A stretch of 38,430 nt of DNA from a virus. Both the position numbers and the translations under genes were made by a program. The notes below the pieces were generated by a model that saw nothing but the letters and a program-made list of their open reading frames with translations, was not told where the DNA came from and searched no databases. The stretch spans positions 1 to 38,430 of the IMG/VR virus record IMGVR_UViG_3300008267_000130; one strand, written 5' to 3'. This document shows positions 4,376-37,936 of the stretch, in pieces. Numbering within the stretch: the stretch's first letter is position 1; each line of letters opens with the position of its first letter.

Positions 4376-6253
4376 ATGGCAGATCCAAAATTTTCTCCAC
4401 AGAATAGAAAATATGCACGTAACCAAAATTTAAAAAACGAAGACTCGCAGCTTTTTAAAAGCTTAACCAGATTATTTTCTGGGCCTATAGTAAACTTTCG
4501 TCAGCAGGCACAACTTCGTTTCCGTCGTCGTGATTTAAATAAATTTAATTTTAAATCTGCTTCCGGTAAACAATTCCAAAAGACAAGTTATAACCCATTT
4601 GATGCTATTCAAGCCAATATTATGGCTAACCAAACTCGCGCTGAACGTTATAGCGATTTTGATCAGATGGAATTCATGCCTGAAATTGCAAGCGCTCTTG
4701 ATATTTACGCAGATGAAATGACAACACATAGCAGCTTTAATAAAATGTTGCATATCGATTCATCCAATCAAGAGATTCGTGGCATCCTTGAGACACTTTA
4801 TTATGATGTATTGAATGTTCAATTCAGCCTATTTGGCTGGTGCCGTACAATGGTTAAGTTTGGTGATATGTTCCTTTATCTTGATATCGATCCAGAACTA
4901 GGCGTCAAGAACGTAATTGGGCTACCAACGCCAGAAGTTGAACGTCTAGAAGGCCAAGATAAAACAAATCCAAGCTATGTTCAATTCCAGTGGAACACAG
5001 GTGGTTTAACTTTTGAAGCTTGGCAAATTGCACATTTCCGTGTATTAGGCCAAGATAAATACAGCCCATACGGTACAAGCATTCTAGAACCAGCGCGTCG
5101 TATTTGGCGTCAATTAACACTATTAGAAGACGCCATGATGGCATACCGTATCGTGCGCGCACCAGATCGCCGTATCTTCTATATTGACGTTGGTAACGTA
5201 GCTCCCGAAGACGTAGACCAATTAATGCTCAAGATTCAAAATCAAATGAAGCGCAACATGATTGTTGATCCAACAAGCGGTCGTGTTGATCTTCGTTATA
5301 ACCCCATGAGTATCGATGAAGATTATTTCATCCCAACTCGCGGCGGTTCAGCAACAAAAGTAGAAACACTTGCTGGTGGTGCTTTCCAAGGCGATATTGA
5401 TGACGTTAAATATCTACGTGATAAATTATTTAGTGCCATTAAGATTCCAGCTTCTTATCTTTCCCGCGCAGAAGGTGGTGATGAAGATAAAGCAACATTA
5501 GCACAAAAAGATATCCGCTTTGCTCGTACTATCCAAAGATTACAACGTGTAATTGTTGCAGAATTAGAAAAAATTGGTATTATTCACCTTTTCACTCTTG
5601 GATATCGTAATGAAGATTTATTGAATTTTAAATTACGCCTTAATAACCCATCTAAGATCAGCGAATTACAAGAGCTTGACCACTGGAAATCAAAGTTTGA
5701 AGCTGCAAATCTTGCCAAGGATGGTTTCTTTAGCAAGCGCTGGTTAAGTGAAAAATTATTTAATCTATCAGAACAAGAATTTAAGAAGATACAACGTGAA
5801 ATCTTCTACGATAAACAATTTGAAAAGGCGCTTGAAGCAATAGGCGCAACACCAGCAGAAGGAGGCGAACCACCAGCGGGTGGAGCAGCGCCAGAACTAC
5901 CAGCAGAAACACCACCAGAGACTCCAGAAGCGTCTCCAGAAGTCACAGCCCCAGTACCACCGGGAGGAGCGGCACCGCCACCAGCAAAACGCAATGATTA
6001 TGAACCCACAAAAGCTGATGGGCGTAAGAGATCGCATTTAAAGAAGTGGATGCGTTCACAAGCTATGCCAGAAGCAGTTGGTGGTATGACAGACCGCTCA
6101 CTTAATAAAGGATATCAAGAAATAGCTTCTTTAGCTTCGCTAGAGGAAGATTTAAGCACTAATTATATAGATGCTGAAGAGCGCAAATTGCATCAAGTCA
6201 ATCAGGATATAAAAAATCTGTTGGCTTCTTTGGAGAAAAAGAATGCAAAATAA
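4376..6253 (+). CDS. 20: Portal protein (gp20-like)
   Basis: 625 residues. The portal forms the dodecameric ring at the unique vertex through which DNA enters. Features: a phage portal pattern such as MEFMPEIASALDIYADE (about residues 97-113), DKYSPYGTSILEPARR and a middle region with RAPDRRIFYIDVGN and ERxxKxQ-like helices. The C-terminal end differs from T4: residues about 490-540 are a Pro/Ala/Gly/Glu linker, followed by about 85 residues that are basic, then helical. That linker probably makes a flexible tail inside or below the head. The gene overlaps the next by 11 nt. Confidence 0.94.
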   Translation: MADPKFSPQNRKYARNQNLKNEDSQLFKSLTRLFSGPIVNFRQQAQLRFRRRDLNKFNFKSASGKQFQKTSYNPFDAIQANIMANQTRAERYSDFDQMEFMPEIASALDIYADEMTTHSSFNKMLHIDSSNQEIRGILETLYYDVLNVQFSLFGWCRTMVKFGDMFLYLDIDPELGVKNVIGLPTPEVERLEGQDKTNPSYVQFQWNTGGLTFEAWQIAHFRVLGQDKYSPYGTSILEPARRIWRQLTLLEDAMMAYRIVRAPDRRIFYIDVGNVAPEDVDQLMLKIQNQMKRNMIVDPTSGRVDLRYNPMSIDEDYFIPTRGGSATKVETLAGGAFQGDIDDVKYLRDKLFSAIKIPASYLSRAEGGDEDKATLAQKDIRFARTIQRLQRVIVAELEKIGIIHLFTLGYRNEDLLNFKLRLNNPSKISELQELDHWKSKFEAANLAKDGFFSKRWLSEKLFNLSEQEFKKIQREIFYDKQFEKALEAIGATPAEGGEPPAGGAAPELPAETPPETPEASPEVTAPVPPGGAAPPPAKRNDYEPTKADGRKRSHLKKWMRSQAMPEAVGGMTDRSLNKGYQEIASLASLEEDLSTNYIDAEERKLHQVNQDIKNLLASLEKKNAK

Positions 6254-8464: not shown

Positions 8465-9064
8465 ATGGCAGAACTAATAAGAGAATTTTATGAATTATGC
8501 GAAGGTGGTTTTTGCCAAGATCTTTTAACTGAAGAAGAAAAGTTAGAAGTTAAATCTGGCAAAGTCACATATCTTACTGGAAAAATGCAAGAAGCCGATG
8601 TCAAGAATGGCAATGGCCGCAAATATCCAGAAAAGATTCTTCGTAGAGAAATGGAAAAATATCAAGAAGTAATTCGCGATAATAGAGCTTTGGGTGAGTT
8701 AGACCATCCAGAAAGCTCTGTTATCAATTTAAAAAACGCTTCCCATATAGTTTTAAAGACTTGGTGGGACGGTCCTGCTGTTATGGCAAAAATTAAAGTT
8801 TTAAATACGCCAAGCGGCCAAATACTTAAATCACTTGTAGAAAGCGGAGTAAAACTTGGTATTTCGTCTCGCGGTCTTGGTTCAACAAAACAAGTTAATG
8901 GTGTAACTGTAGTTGATGATGATTTTCAGCTCATTTGTTTCGATATGGTAAGCGAACCATCAACACCAAATGCTTATATGATGAAAGAAGCAAAAGATAG
9001 ACTAAAGAAACAAGAAAAAAATGTTAGACTTAACGAAATGCTTGATAAAATATTAGGCGGTTAA
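8465..9064 (+). CDS. 21: Prohead core protease (gp21-like, peptidase family S77)
   Basis: 199 residues. This serine protease matures the prohead by cleaving scaffold and capsid proteins after (L/I)xE. The sequence shows the family pattern: KNGNGRKYP at 47-55, catalytic His81 in GELDHPE, and the catalytic Ser in GISSRG (S133 or S134). The length is close to T4 gp21 (212). The C-terminal 25 residues are charged and could be trimmed in self-processing. The substrates are in the same cluster: gp22-like scaffold at 13545 and capsid protein at 14666, which carries LRE at 58-60. Confidence 0.93.
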   Translation: MAELIREFYELCEGGFCQDLLTEEEKLEVKSGKVTYLTGKMQEADVKNGNGRKYPEKILRREMEKYQEVIRDNRALGELDHPESSVINLKNASHIVLKTWWDGPAVMAKIKVLNTPSGQILKSLVESGVKLGISSRGLGSTKQVNGVTVVDDDFQLICFDMVSEPSTPNAYMMKEAKDRLKKQEKNVRLNEMLDKILGG

Positions 9065-13544: not shown

Positions 13545-14642
13545 ATGTCTTCATTGCTTGAACAAGCTATTGCCGATGCAAAGATGTTAAAGGAAACAGC
13601 GCGTAAAAATGCAGAAGCGCAGATTCTTGAACACTTCTCGGATAAAATTAAACAAAATATCGAAGCACTTTTAGAGCAAGAAGCTGGTGTAGATGTTCCA
13701 TCCGTTCCAACAGAAGAACCAGCAGCACCAGAAATGGATTTATCTCCAACTCTCCCAGCACCAGAAACAAAAAAAGTTATGGATAAAATTCCAGCAGCTT
13801 ATCTTGGCGAAGATGTCTCGCAAGAAGTTGAAATCGATCTTGATACGCTAGTTGAAAAAGTTGAAAGTATGGAAAAAGAGCTTAATGTTAAAGCACCAGA
13901 AATTTCAACATTTGAAGAACGCCCAGCGGTTGAAAAACCACAAGAACATCTTCCAGCAGCCGAATTAGCAGAATCTCTTGAAGAAGGCACTGAATTTGAA
14001 GAAAAAGTTGAAGAAGCTCTAGAAGAAGAAGGTTTAGAAGTTGAAGAAACACTAGACGAAGAAATGCAAATTGATATCCAAAATACGCGTCCCGGCGGTA
14101 TCAATATGAGCGAACTTGAAATGAAGAAACAAGTTGCTATTGCTAAGGCTCTTGAAACCCAACGTGACGCCCTTATGGAACAAGTTAAAGAACGCAACGA
14201 AGCGATTCTTCAACTATCAGAGCATAACGAATTATTAGAAGAAAAATATAAAACAGCTTTTTCAAAGCTCAAGAAGTCAGTTGAGATCAACTCAGCGCTA
14301 AAAGAAAATCTTAAAAAAGTTACAAATACACTAAACGAAGTTAATATTGTAAATGCAAGATTACTATATACAAATAAAATTTTAGGAAATGTCTCCTTGA
14401 ATGAGCGTCAAAAGTCACAAATTGCCGAAACCATTTCCAAAGCAACAACGGTAGATGAAGCTAAAACGATCTACGAAACACTTAAAGGCACAATGCAAAC
14501 TGTAGTTGAAAAACGCACAGTACCACAATCATTGTCTGAAGCTGTTCAAAGAGCGCCAAGCCCATTCTTACCAAGAAATAACAACCCAAGCGCAGATCCC
14601 ATTGCGGAGCGCTGGAAACTAATTGCAGGTATAAAAAAATAA
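13545..14642 (+). CDS. 22: Prohead core scaffold protein (gp22-like)
   Basis: 365 residues using the ATG at 13545, chosen because GAGG lies 7 nt upstream; a TTG 48 nt earlier lacks a ribosome site. The scaffold fills the prohead and is cut to peptides by gp21 on maturation. Residues 1-40 are helical, about 45-185 are extremely acidic and Pro/Glu-rich, and about 190-330 are a long coiled coil with VNARLLYTNKIL and SLNERQKSQIAE...TVDEAKTIYETL, a pattern I recognise from gp22-like proteins of distant T4-like phages. Directly upstream of the capsid gene, as in T4. It is longer than T4 gp22 (269), mainly through the acidic part. Confidence 0.85.
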   Translation: MSSLLEQAIADAKMLKETARKNAEAQILEHFSDKIKQNIEALLEQEAGVDVPSVPTEEPAAPEMDLSPTLPAPETKKVMDKIPAAYLGEDVSQEVEIDLDTLVEKVESMEKELNVKAPEISTFEERPAVEKPQEHLPAAELAESLEEGTEFEEKVEEALEEEGLEVEETLDEEMQIDIQNTRPGGINMSELEMKKQVAIAKALETQRDALMEQVKERNEAILQLSEHNELLEEKYKTAFSKLKKSVEINSALKENLKKVTNTLNEVNIVNARLLYTNKILGNVSLNERQKSQIAETISKATTVDEAKTIYETLKGTMQTVVEKRTVPQSLSEAVQRAPSPFLPRNNNPSADPIAERWKLIAGIKK

Positions 14643-14665: not shown

Positions 14666-16441
14666 ATGGCAAATATTTTAGAAAGACTTACCGAAGGAAC
14701 GGTAGTCCAAAACAAGAAAGCAGAAAGCGTAGCACTATTAAGCAAGTGGGAAAAAAGCGGTCTACTAGAAGGTATCGATAACGAATATCAACGTGGCGCA
14801 ATGGCAGTTCTCCTAGAGAACCAAGCCAAAGAACTACTCCGCGAAGCTAATACAATGTCAAGCGGCGACGTTCAAGGTTTCGCAGCAGTTGCGTTCCCAA
14901 TCGTTCGCCGTGTATTCGCTGGCCTAATCGCCAACGATCTCGTTTCAGTCCAACCAATGAGCCTTCCATCAGGCCTCGTATTCTTCATGGATTTCAAGCG
15001 CGGTAATGATATTGGTAACGTAGGTGATCTAGCACAAGTAGCTGGCGAATCATTCTATGGTGATCGCGTTGGCGTTCAAATCACTGGCGGCGTTCGCGTA
15101 GACGGTGTTGATTATGCTGAAAAGGGTTTCTATGCTCTTGCTAACGGTTACAACAAAGCACGCTATGTTGAATCAGTTGCAACCAATAGCGTAGGCGTTT
15201 CATTCAGCCACTTTGGTCTTGCGGCGGCAACAGATACACAACTTGCATCAGTACGTTGGGATGCGGATTTAGTTAACGATACAACTTTATATCCATCAGC
15301 CTCAGTCATCACTGTTCCACTTTCTGCTCTAACCAAGCGTGACCTAATTGCTGTACAAGATCTATTCTCGTTATCAGCAGTTCAAAAAGCTACAGCAGTT
15401 GCCGATGCAGTTGGTGATGCAACTGGTACATCTGCACTTTGCGGTGGTAATGTTAAGGTTATCCGTCGTTTAACCCGCATCGAAGGTACAGATCTTAAGA
15501 TCGTTGTTGCTGGTAATACATCAGCCGGTACCCTTTCAACAGCAGCTCTATTTGATGTTGGTGGTTATCTCGTACTTTCATTCCCAATCAAGGACCAAAT
15601 TAATGCAGTTGGCGACAACGCATTAGGCGCTCTAAAAGGCGGCGAACCTTGGGCACTTGAAAATACATCAAGCATTCCAGAGATTAAGCTACAAGTAGAT
15701 AGCTTCTCAATCACCGCTCGTTCACGTAAGCTCAAGGCTGTCTGGACCCCAGAATTAAGCCAAGATCTAAATGCTTACCACAACCTCGACGCTGAAGTTG
15801 AATTAACCTCAATTCTCAGCGAACAAATTGGTCTTGAAATTGATCAAGAAATCCTAAACGATCTAATCAAGGGCCAAACCGCTGGTGTTAAATACTGGTC
15901 ACGCCGTCCCGGTAAGTTCGTAAACCGTAATACAGGCGCAGAACTAGGTACAGCAGATTCATATGCTGCACCACCAGACTTCACTGGTAACGTTTCAATG
16001 TGGTACGAAACATTACTAGAAACCGTTAACGACGTTTCAGCTAACATCCACCGTAAGACACTACGCGGTGCTGCTAACTTCATCGTTGTTTCGCCAGAAG
16101 TTGCAAATATCCTTGAATTCACCGCTGGCTTCCGCGCTACCGTTTCACACGATAGCGAAAAAGGCTCAACCGGTGCAGTCAAGGTTGGCGCTATCAACAG
16201 CAAGTTCGACGTAATTGTTGACCCATACTTCCCACGTAACATCATTCTCGTTGGTCGTAAGGGTGCATCATTCCTCGAAAGCGGCTATGTTTATGCTCCA
16301 TACGTTCCACTACAAACCACACCAACCATCTTCAATCCTGACACCTTCGTACCAAACAAGGCTGTCATGACCCGTTATGGTAAGGCGATGGTCCGCCCAG
16401 ACATGTACGGTCTTGTTGTTATCCAAGATCTACTTGGCTAA
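14666..16441 (+). CDS. 23: Major capsid protein (gp23-like)
   Basis: 591 residues, HK97-fold capsid subunit of T4 type. The N-terminal prosequence (1-60) is helical and ends in LLREANTM, which fits gp21 cleavage after (L/I)xE: LRE at 58-60, cut before A61. The gp23 core follows, with DVQGFAAVAFPIVRRVF (68-84), VQPM (95-98), long insertion-like variable parts, and the C-terminal KAMVRPDMYGLVVIQDLLG typical of the family. The ribosome site is CGGAGA. Codons lean to C-ending forms more than in neighbouring genes, as expected for a very highly expressed protein. A strong terminator follows. A shorter paralogue of its N-terminus lies at 37460. Confidence 0.96.
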   Translation: MANILERLTEGTVVQNKKAESVALLSKWEKSGLLEGIDNEYQRGAMAVLLENQAKELLREANTMSSGDVQGFAAVAFPIVRRVFAGLIANDLVSVQPMSLPSGLVFFMDFKRGNDIGNVGDLAQVAGESFYGDRVGVQITGGVRVDGVDYAEKGFYALANGYNKARYVESVATNSVGVSFSHFGLAAATDTQLASVRWDADLVNDTTLYPSASVITVPLSALTKRDLIAVQDLFSLSAVQKATAVADAVGDATGTSALCGGNVKVIRRLTRIEGTDLKIVVAGNTSAGTLSTAALFDVGGYLVLSFPIKDQINAVGDNALGALKGGEPWALENTSSIPEIKLQVDSFSITARSRKLKAVWTPELSQDLNAYHNLDAEVELTSILSEQIGLEIDQEILNDLIKGQTAGVKYWSRRPGKFVNRNTGAELGTADSYAAPPDFTGNVSMWYETLLETVNDVSANIHRKTLRGAANFIVVSPEVANILEFTAGFRATVSHDSEKGSTGAVKVGAINSKFDVIVDPYFPRNIILVGRKGASFLESGYVYAPYVPLQTTPTIFNPDTFVPNKAVMTRYGKAMVRPDMYGLVVIQDLLG

Positions 16442-34527: not shown

Positions 34528-35349
34528 ATGGATACAGTAATTGGAATAGGACCAGATGGTTGCCGTATTGCAGATGAATTTGCTAAATACCCACAATACG
34601 ATGTTTATAAAATCAGTACTGGTATAAATGGACAAAACTGTTTTGCGCTACAAGAAAAAAACACACCAGAAGAATATGAAAACAGCGTGCCAGATCTAAC
34701 GCAGTTCTTCTCTGATGTTGAAGGTGATGTGTTGTTTGTCATTGGAGGCGGTAGCAAGATCAGCGGTGCTTCTCTTCAGATAATGAAGTACATAAAAGAC
34801 AAAAATATACACGTTCTCTATAAACGTCCAGTTCTGTCAGAATTAAATAAAACATCTTTGCTACAAGAAAAACTTACATATAATGTTTTTCAAGAATATG
34901 CACGGTCGGGTATCTTTAAAAAACTTTTTATTGTTTCAGAGGAAAGTTTAGAAGAAGTAATTGGTGATGTATCAATTCTAGATTTTAAAAATGCAGTTGA
35001 CAAACAAATTGTTAACGTGATACACTACACAAATATTTTTCAAAACACGGAAGCAGTCCTAGACAATAGCGAACCGCCAAAAGAGATAGCGCGTATCTGC
35101 ACATTTGGTACGCAAGATATGCAAAGTGGAGAAGAAAAACAGTTCTTTAATCTACAAAATATTTGTGATAAAATTTATTTTTTTGCTATAAAAGAAGAGG
35201 ATTTGAAATCCGACAAGAAACTAATTAAGAATATAAGGGAGCAACTTTCAAAAAACGAAATTCGACCATCCTACCGTGTTCATAGCACTAAACATCCACA
35301 ATCTTTTTGTTATTTTATTTCGTACAGCAGCAGAATACAAGAAGGTTGA
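34528..35349 (+). CDS. Possible FtsZ/tubulin-like protein
   Basis: 273 residues. It opens directly with a nucleotide-fold strand and Gly loop, TVIGIGPDGCRIADEF (3-18), comparable to the first loop of FtsZ and tubulin (GVGGGGNNA, GQAGNQI). A second strand leads to GGGSKISGAS (73-82), in place of the tubulin signature GGGTGSG, then an exposed strand HVLYKRP, like VVTRPF of FtsZ, and KLFIVSEESLEEVIG like FtsZ LIVIPND.LL. A helix FKNAVDKQIVNVIHYTNIF follows. The order and spacing match, but the signature is not exact and the usual C-terminal domain is short. I also recall this family, unnamed, from marine T4-like phages. A general Rossmann protein is the alternative. Confidence 0.42.
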   Translation: MDTVIGIGPDGCRIADEFAKYPQYDVYKISTGINGQNCFALQEKNTPEEYENSVPDLTQFFSDVEGDVLFVIGGGSKISGASLQIMKYIKDKNIHVLYKRPVLSELNKTSLLQEKLTYNVFQEYARSGIFKKLFIVSEESLEEVIGDVSILDFKNAVDKQIVNVIHYTNIFQNTEAVLDNSEPPKEIARICTFGTQDMQSGEEKQFFNLQNICDKIYFFAIKEEDLKSDKKLIKNIREQLSKNEIRPSYRVHSTKHPQSFCYFISYSSRIQEG

Positions 35350-35374
35350 CAGCGGCAAGAACATCTGCTATAGT
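35346..35374 (+). promoter_or_regulatory. Sigma70-type promoter upstream of small gene and gp32
   Basis: TTGACA (35346-35351), exactly 17 nt, then TATAGT (35369-35374), one mismatch from TATAAT. The -35 box overlaps the TGA stop of the previous gene. A start site near 35381 gives a leader of about 14 nt before ATG 35395, with GGAGG in it. It should drive the small gene and probably gp32 in the early or middle stage. Confidence 0.85.
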
Positions 35375-36505: not shown

Positions 36506-37447
36506 ATGGCAAAAAAGTTTGATTTAGATGCGTACAAAAAAAGCGTAGTTGCTGCACCAGTAGAAAAAAAACCAGATAAATATGTTGTATTAGACGAATG
36601 TCTACAAAGTGTTATTGGCATTCCCGGCGTTCCACTTGGCCATATCACACAGGTTTATGGTAAAAGTGACACAGGCAAAACATCGCTACTATTCCACGCA
36701 GCAGCGCAAGCCCAAAAACAAAATGTCCTTCCAGTGTTTATTATGACCGAAGGCAAGGTTGATTGGAGCCGTGCAGAAAAGATGGGCGTTAATGTTGAGC
36801 AATGTATTATTAACGAAGACTGCCAGACTCTAGAGGATGTATTCGCAGCCATTGACCGTATTGTTACCGACGTTGGCATGGGCGAACTACCAATGGATAC
36901 ACTTATTCTATGGGATTCAATTGGTTCACTACCAAGCAAAGACGAAGTTGTTGTCAACAAAGATGGTACAACCGACCGCAAACCAAGCATGATGAAAGCT
37001 GCTAAGGTTATTCGTGAACATATTCGTGTACTAAGTAAGAAAATCAACAATACACGCAATATAAGCTTCCCTAAAGCAGTTGGGCTAATGGCACTCAACC
37101 AAGCCTATACAAAGCCCCCAGAGAGCGCCTACGGCCATTCTAGCCTTGTTCCTTATGGTGGGGATGGTGTTTGGTATGCGGCTAGTGCTGTATGGCAAAT
37201 GAAAAAGATCAAACGTCTATCTGCAACAAAGAATAAGATGGCTTTTGACTTTGCGCTTATCTCACGTATTTCGGTACAAAAGAATCATATCACCGACCTT
37301 ATGATGGAAGGCGACTTCGTTATTACATCTGACGCTTTTATCCCTAATGAGAAAAAAGCTATTGATGATTATAAAGATGCTCACCGCGAACAATGGGGCG
37401 AATCAGAAATTTATGAAGCTGAAACTGGCGAAATGCTAGATTCTTAA
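36506..37447 (+). CDS. uvsX: UvsX / RecA-like recombinase
   Basis: 313 residues (T4 UvsX 391). Strand-exchange ATPase used in recombination-dependent replication with gp32 and UvsY. Walker A GKSDTGKTS at 52-60 with K58/T59; Walker B LILWD at 133-137; catalytic Glu region MTEGKVDW at 80-87; a gap-facing loop near NNTRNISFPKAV; VGLMALNQAY as the RecA-type strand before the DNA loop; C-terminal EAETGEMLD tail. Shorter than T4 at both ends. It shares the local C-leaning codon use with gp32. A capsid-like small gene follows 12 nt later, most likely on the same message. Confidence 0.92.
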   Translation: MAKKFDLDAYKKSVVAAPVEKKPDKYVVLDECLQSVIGIPGVPLGHITQVYGKSDTGKTSLLFHAAAQAQKQNVLPVFIMTEGKVDWSRAEKMGVNVEQCIINEDCQTLEDVFAAIDRIVTDVGMGELPMDTLILWDSIGSLPSKDEVVVNKDGTTDRKPSMMKAAKVIREHIRVLSKKINNTRNISFPKAVGLMALNQAYTKPPESAYGHSSLVPYGGDGVWYAASAVWQMKKIKRLSATKNKMAFDFALISRISVQKNHITDLMMEGDFVITSDAFIPNEKKAIDDYKDAHREQWGESEIYEAETGEMLDS

Positions 37448-37459
37448 AAGGACAAAAAC

Positions 37460-37876
37460 ATGCAAACATCAGAACAGTTAGTAGAGAAGTGGGAAGAAAG
37501 TGGATTACTAGAAGGAGCAGTTAACAAGAGTGGCCTATCATATGCTCTAGAACATGCTGCAAGCCATCTACTTGAATATTCAGCGGGTAAATATGATGAC
37601 AGTGAAGTACAGTTTGCTGCATCAGTTACCTTCCCTGTTATTAGGCGTGTACTTGGGGAGAAAGAATTCTCATTCGTGCCAATGTATAAAGATGTAAATT
37701 ACACAAGAGAAGTAGAATTCGTAGAGTACGCAGGAGAAGAAGCAGAAGCCCAAGTCTGCCAAGCAGTTGCAGAAAAGATGAAGGAACGTGTTTCTAAATA
37801 TCCAAACCTAAAGATTCACGGAGTTTCCGCAGAATGCCAAAAGGGCGGATTTAATCTACACTTCCTCTGCTCATAA
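37460..37876 (+). CDS. Truncated paralogue of the major capsid protein N-terminus
   Basis: 138 residues. Residues 7-75 align with residues 24-98 of the capsid protein at 14666: KWEESGLLEG (10-19) against KWEKSGLLEG (27-36), HLLEYS (36-41) against LLREAN (57-62), VQFAASVTFPVIRRV (50-64) against VQGFAAVAFPIVRRV (69-83), VPM (73-75) against QPM (96-98). It keeps an LxE site (LLE, 37-39) that gp21 could cut. The remaining 63 residues (REVEFVEYAGEEAEAQVCQAV, here cited as REVEFVEYAGEE) are unrelated to capsid core, so it cannot form an HK97 shell subunit. It is in the uvsX unit, not in the late head block. Regulator, decoy or internal head protein are options. Confidence 0.72.
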   Translation: MQTSEQLVEKWEESGLLEGAVNKSGLSYALEHAASHLLEYSAGKYDDSEVQFAASVTFPVIRRVLGEKEFSFVPMYKDVNYTREVEFVEYAGEEAEAQVCQAVAEKMKERVSKYPNLKIHGVSAECQKGGFNLHFLCS

Positions 37877-37887
37877 TTAAGTAAGAC

Positions 37888-37916
37888 TTGATCTACTGGC
37901 TCCACTGTGCTACTAT
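37888..37916 (+). promoter_or_regulatory. Sigma70-like promoter overlapping the terminator
   Basis: TTGATC (37888-37893), 17 nt, TACTAT (37911-37916); each hexamer matches consensus at 4 of 6. The -10 box is in the loop of the terminator hairpin. A start near 37923 would make a message beginning in the 3' arm, with GGAG 7 nt before ATG 37937 unpaired. The leader of about 14 nt resembles that of the promoter at 35346. Confidence 0.5.
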
Positions 37917-37936
37917 CTAGGCAGTGGAGCTTTTTT
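37899..37936 (+). terminator. Terminator that also holds the next gene's ribosome site
   Basis: 9-bp stem GCTCCACTG (37899-37907) with CAGTGGAGC (37922-37930), 14-nt loop, then six T that run straight into ATG 37937. It ends the uvsX/capsid-like unit. The GGAG site of the next gene (37926-37929) is inside the 3' arm, so read-through RNA would hide it. Confidence 0.88.

Follow-up and report, generated by a model that had tools for sequence, protein, structure and literature searches.

Why does a T4-type myophage carry, among its replication genes, a small gene whose product begins like the N-terminus of its major capsid protein (MCP), and what might this product do? The window, i.e. the whole stretch of 38,430 nucleotides analysed here, is a 38.4-kb viral contig with its genes on the plus strand and is probably a genome fragment. 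Terminase, portal, prohead protease, putative scaffold, MCP and tail genes are followed by a replication segment with a family A DNA polymerase, a gp32-type SSB and uvsX. Judged by MCP and uvsX, the nearest isolates are Flavobacterium phages 'immuto'. The small gene and its protein are called P0001 below, and the following features of the window are relevant to it:

8465-9064, plus strand: prohead (head maturation) protease
13545-14642, plus strand: probable scaffold, assigned from its position before the MCP gene and its Glu-rich coiled character only; no family match was found
14666-16441, plus strand: gp23-family MCP, 591 aa
14717-14920, plus strand: MCP residues 18-85, the segment homologous to the small protein
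36506-37447, plus strand: uvsX-type recombinase, first gene of the unit shared with the small gene
37460-37876, plus strand: small gene P0001, MCP-N-terminus-like protein of 138 aa
37460-37657, plus strand: P0001 residues 1-66, homologous to MCP residues ca. 18-85 (KWExSGLLEG, FP, RR)
37703-37873, plus strand: P0001 residues 82-138, C-terminal beta-alpha-beta-beta domain, conserved in the relative P0004

Only 12 nt separate uvsX from P0001, and AAGGA is found just 5' of the P0001 start codon (ATG). The initial annotation described the gene as lying about 21 kb from the MCP gene, behind uvsX and before a terminator, which is correct, a hairpin being found after it.

Relationship to the major capsid protein

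Derivation of the small protein from the MCP N-terminus, proposed in the initial annotation, is borne out by BLASTP, shuffling, phmmer and hhalign. BLASTP aligned P0001 to the MCP of the window with 27 of 66 residues identical (41%, E=3e-11); without composition correction the score was 45.8 bits, as compared to 28.9 bits for the best of 2,000 shuffles. As a single phmmer query P0001 retrieved about 80 related MCPs of the clade (E 1e-7 to 5e-5), and profile alignment of the small-protein family with 15 MCPs by hhalign gave a significant match (Prob 98.1, E=1.1e-13) over residues 3-81, with VPM placed against QPM. The matched part of the MCP runs from about residue 18 or 21 to 85, or as far as 98 with the VPM/QPM end included. 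The match of about 70 residues noted earlier thus holds over some 66 residues family-wide, whereas the VPM end is found in the P0001 copy only.

Significant homology of P0001 is limited to MCP N-termini. There was no match to Pfam (PF07068, the Gp23 model) or PHROG and no HK97-type capsid core, and T4 gp23 itself lies beyond the reach of the family profile. Judged from its sequence, P0001 is a partial MCP paralogue, not a capsid protein. A recent duplication of the phage's own MCP was rejected as its source, as this MCP is not the best match and the three small proteins known (see below) cluster together.

With gp23-type MCPs, P0001 shares about 66 homologous residues, the predicted order of three helices, and the KWExSGLLEG and FP motifs of the prosequence and N-arm. 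Unlike these MCPs it is free-standing, has a C-terminal domain of its own, is encoded among replication genes, and is devoid of the capsid core, the cleavage-like site and the Gol-equivalent block. The T4 vertex protein gp24 is another product of gp23 duplication (PMC9958956), but gp24 is a whole capsid protein encoded beside gene 23, whereas P0001 comprises the N-terminal module only and is found elsewhere in the genome.

Predicted structure

AlphaFold2 modelling of P0001, based on aligned family members and MCP N-termini, gave a best model (pLDDT 89, pTM 0.85; other four models 52-69) with helices at residues 4-12, 23-41 and 47-65, followed by a strand (82-89), a helix (97-111) and two strands (118-127 and 130-137). 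The N-terminal helices predicted for the MCP (17-31, 40-65 and 70-89) match those of P0001 in register, so that the predicted helix layout of residues 1-66 agrees with that of the MCP N-terminus; the full-length MCP model is poor outside this region (pLDDT 46) and was used only for these helices. P0001 is thus predicted to consist of three helices in the layout of the MCP prosequence and N-arm, joined to a beta-alpha-beta-beta domain. Neither outcome named in the initial annotation as refuting, a missing profile match or a deviating N-terminal fold, was obtained.

That the protein diverges into a separate C-terminal part, as noted initially, is supported: residues 82-138 are conserved in P0004 and have no outside match. 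Searches with the C-terminal half had no hit up to E=10 among phage records and none among viral contigs, nor any credible match in Pfam, PHROG or PDB sequences. The predicted fold likewise gave no credible match with Foldseek against the PDB (best E 0.48) or with VIA (best Z 3.9). In BFVD, the best fold match was a 96-aa protein of Erwinia phage Y3 (E=1.5e-3, 8% identity), followed by a weaker match to a ctPuP5 protein (E=0.037, 29% identity); a Tad2-like PaBG protein (E=0.04) was too weak a match to use.

Residues retained and lost

Multiple sequence alignment revealed that K10, W11, G15, L16, L17 and G19, which are invariant in 68 MCPs, are present in all three small proteins, as are the KWExSGLL(E/D)G motif and F58-P59. 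Because residues invariant in the MCPs are kept in all three, the small proteins probably use the same partner contact as the MCP.

The processing signals are not kept. The small proteins begin at about MCP position 18, the first ca. 17 residues of the MCP being gone, and lack the LTE↓G sequence found among these first residues in 54 of the 68 MCPs. A cleavage-like site, ELL(R/K)E↓(A/S/T), occurs in 58 of the 68 clade MCPs and in none of the three small proteins. It resembles the N-terminus of T4 gp24, MAKINELLRES, from which the prohead protease removes the first 10 residues, i.e. after LRE (PMC9958956). The earlier suggestion of a retained (L/I)xE-like cleavage site is therefore not upheld: P0001 has four L-x-E triplets, and the one at residues 37-39, LLE, is off register and is not common to the other two proteins. 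All three carry an LVE triplet at residues 7-9. That the cleavage-like site is gone would fit a part not meant for MCP-type processing.

Family-wide similarity stops near residue 66, before the Gol-equivalent block GLIANDLVSVQPMSLPSG, which we take to be the Gol region of T4 gp23; the correspondence comes from the T4 sequence, and the exact limits of Gol are presumed. The size and conservation of Gol have been described (PMC3014915). This block is not retained in the small proteins, with VPM alone remaining, in P0001. The match common to the family consequently ends short of where Gol lies, and a Gol-based decoy for Lit is not supported, this block being the very part missing from the family.

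A small accessory family at two genomic sites

Whole-contig searches of related phages yielded two full-length relatives:

L098:5274-5735, minus strand: P0004, 153 aa, 49% identical to P0001 over all 138 residues
L099:4415-4840, plus strand: P0005, 141 aa, 25% identical to P0001

Both are located between a Zn-ribbon ORF of 81-83 aa and nrdA, in the order helicase - nrdB - thioredoxin - Zn-ribbon - small gene - nrdA. No relative other than these two came up when P0001, its C-terminal half, P0004, P0005 or the family alignment served as the query. Plasmids contained no family member, and species-level bacterial and archaeal genomes contained no relative of the family or of the window's uvsX. The contigs searched are or may be fragments, and absence of the family elsewhere is to that extent weakly supported.

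The three small proteins cluster apart from the 68 MCPs (support 0.86, which is modest and based on only ca. 66 residues), and their reading frames are intact. For the pair P0001-P0004, dN is 0.46 and dS 1.57 (near saturation), with similar ratios in both halves, which argues that the C-terminal half is constrained coding sequence as well. P0005 is much more diverged in the C-terminal part (17-18% identity to the others vs 33-38% in the N-terminal part), yet a common fold is suggested by the layout of this part and its GF.L..HLL end.

The initial annotation proposed a search of related phages for the same gene beside uvsX. Homologues do exist, but they lie beside nrdA, and the site behind uvsX is empty in L083 and L085, where uvsX is directly followed by a terminator hairpin and the next gene (MSKLEWTTL...). 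The uvsX of L083 is 95% identical to that of the window as protein and the DNA ca. 76% over 5.4 kb. In L084, a 407-aa gene and a 145-aa HNH-like ORF occupy positions 64-1786 after uvsX; since other genes are found there, the place behind uvsX is a variable insertion site. In L105 and L106, nrdB is followed by nrdA with no small gene between them. The family is accessory and occupies two sites, both in replication or nucleotide-metabolism blocks.

GroES/gp31-like co-chaperonin genes are located a few genes after nrdA (L105:5020-5310, plus strand; L099:9500-9784, plus strand; L098:362-646, minus strand). The L105 gene product passes the Pfam Cpn10 cut-off, and the L098 and L099 proteins are homologous to it.

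Expression of the small gene

Four elements of the replication part bear on expression:

35346-35374, plus strand: sigma-70-like site TTGACA-17-TATAGT, replication segment
35594-35622, plus strand: second sigma-70-like site, replication segment
36454-36487, plus strand: hairpin ahead of uvsX with TATAAT in the loop (terminator/promoter unit)
37888-37936, plus strand: unit after the small gene, with TTGATC, 17 nt, TACTAT inside a hairpin, then six T

The genes uvsX and P0001 form one unit between two hairpins that carry -10-like elements in their loops, P0001 being the last gene, and this shared unit makes co-transcription with uvsX probable. Plus-strand matches to TTGACA-N16-18-TANNNT occur four times in the window, all at 33.2-35.6 kb in the replication segment, and the capsid region has no comparable promoter. 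Expression of P0001 with uvsX and before the capsid, as suggested initially, is plausible from the shared unit and from the restriction of strong promoter-like sites to the replication segment, a layout that supports earlier synthesis without proving it. The T4 late promoter sequence TATAAATA is not enriched in the window (5 observed vs 5.9 expected), so that the timing of capsid expression cannot be read from the sequence.

Compact terminator-promoter units of this type, with a -35-like hexamer before the hairpin, a -10 element in the loop and often a T run, are found around uvsX at the same places in L083, L084, L085, L086, L088 and L089; in L086 the unit has TTGACA-17-TAGAGT inside CCGCCAGTG... 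An RNA reading through such a unit would form the terminator hairpin, and the following transcript would be initiated on that very DNA.

Possible function

At a rough probability of 0.4, we propose that P0001 is a stand-alone MCP 'address' module which engages the scaffold, or GroEL with the phage co-chaperonin, and thereby adjusts how MCP folds or assembles. An ancestral clade MCP would have contributed the prosequence and N-arm helices, which were severed from the rest of the protein, fused to a new beta-alpha-beta-beta domain and relocated to the replication segment. This module would most likely bind the partner that the same residues contact in nascent MCP, which may be the scaffold core or GroEL with a phage GroES-like co-chaperonin. 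Produced together with uvsX and earlier than the capsid (as we infer from the layout above), it could load, occupy or pace this partner and so influence MCP folding or head assembly, including when and how MCP enters assembly. Somewhat more tentative is the wider proposal of a new phage protein family that derives from a discarded MCP N-terminal address, is made alongside recombination proteins prior to the capsid and controls capsid entry via the scaffold or GroEL/co-chaperonin.

T4 uses GroEL with gp31, which is matched by the GroES-like gene that L098 and L099 each carry ca. 5 kb downstream of their small gene. This neighbourhood is not specific, because L105 has the co-chaperonin gene after nrdA with no small gene beside nrdA. 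The T4 gp23 N-terminus strongly targets fusion proteins to GroEL (PMC3012670); by analogy, the residues kept in P0001 may do so as well. In T4, 65 N-terminal residues of gp23 are removed (PMC9958956), which drives the changes for shell expansion (PMC9026906), and the helices retained in P0001 come from the portion of gp23 with a role prior to maturation. T4, too, has a small head gene directly behind uvsX, gene 40, which encodes the head vertex assembly chaperone gp40, though P0001 is not a gp40 homologue (no BLASTP alignment, hhalign Prob 1.6). Of the functions suggested in the initial annotation, a brake or nucleator of assembly still ranks first; the GroEL link, absent from that annotation, is at least as well grounded. 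The accessory, patchy occurrence fits a role in an arms race as well.

Among the alternatives, the one that survives best is that the fragment was reused for something unrelated or is slowly decaying and near-neutral, its capsid origin being uninformative on present function. Only three members are known, P0005 is strongly diverged and several relatives lack the gene at these sites. We nevertheless consider it unlikely, since the KWE..GLL motif is exactly as in MCPs, which argues for a conserved partner, and intact frames with dN/dS near 0.3 (at a dS near saturation) speak against a neutral fragment.

An internal head protein, in which the MCP-derived N-terminus docks on the scaffold core and the C-terminal domain is cargo for the next host, appears rather improbable. 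The T4 proteins IPI-IPIII, with their capsid targeting sequence, likewise combine a short N-terminal docking element with a variable remainder and occur patchily (PMC9026906), and the more variable C-terminus of P0005 agrees with this pattern; the LVE triplet could serve as a short propeptide site, although L-x-E triplets are common by chance. The putative docking part of P0001, however, is MCP-derived and comes without a clear cleavage site, both LTE↓G and LL(R/K)E being missing. The small proteins have pI values of 4.8-5.0 and so differ from the T4 set, for which a basic character is described (PMC9026906), and the module is found in no other protein of 43 whole contigs, a result that also led us to reject a general packaging tag. 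The initial suggestion of an internal protein is weakened by these findings.

Less probable still is a decoy or shield, an early mimic of the MCP N-terminus occupying a capsid-sensing host defence. Such defences exist (PMC9712102; PMC11312562), and the gene resembles many anti-defence genes in being accessory, placed on the early side and mobile between sites. Yet, besides the lost Gol-equivalent block, the E- and P-loops through which Sau-Thoeris senses the capsid hexamer (PMC11312562) are both absent here. There was no PADLOC match, in a library of defence, not anti-defence, proteins.

The least probable reading is that this diverged, accessory and probably early copy of an assembly contact poisons the heads of co-infecting phages or satellites using the same scaffold or chaperone contact, much as satellites redirect capsid assembly with small proteins, but there is no evidence of a target, and the phage's own heads would be at risk as its MCP carries the same motif. 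P4 Sid and SaPI CpmA/B are small satellite-encoded proteins acting on head assembly; they are not known to consist of MCP prosequence.

Whether the gp23-type prosequence binds scaffold, GroEL or both is difficult to address with the complete protein, because the latter assembles. A module that has apparently been cut out and kept in a small protein with the conserved motif opens this question to direct tests. Part of a capsid gene would have become an accessory gene of T4-type phages, and its product is a candidate for assembly control or anti-defence.

Other features of the related contigs

Where the Zn-ribbon ORF overlaps the small gene (by ca. 60-70 nt), a perfect 12-bp direct repeat, AGAAAAGTGGGA, is found at L099:4398-4409 and 4438-4449, 40 nt apart, and likewise in L098; it is possibly a recombination scar. 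Directly after nrdA, both contigs encode a lipoprotein-like protein of 516 aa (L099:6647-8197, plus strand; L098:1926-3476, minus strand) that matches Pfam Thiol_cytolysin (E=6e-43), which is unusual in a phage. In L106 (5948-9153, plus strand), nrdA is split by a GIY-YIG-like ORF and has an intein-like C-terminal end (...DITVEDNHNFYANGILVHNC), as read by eye only.
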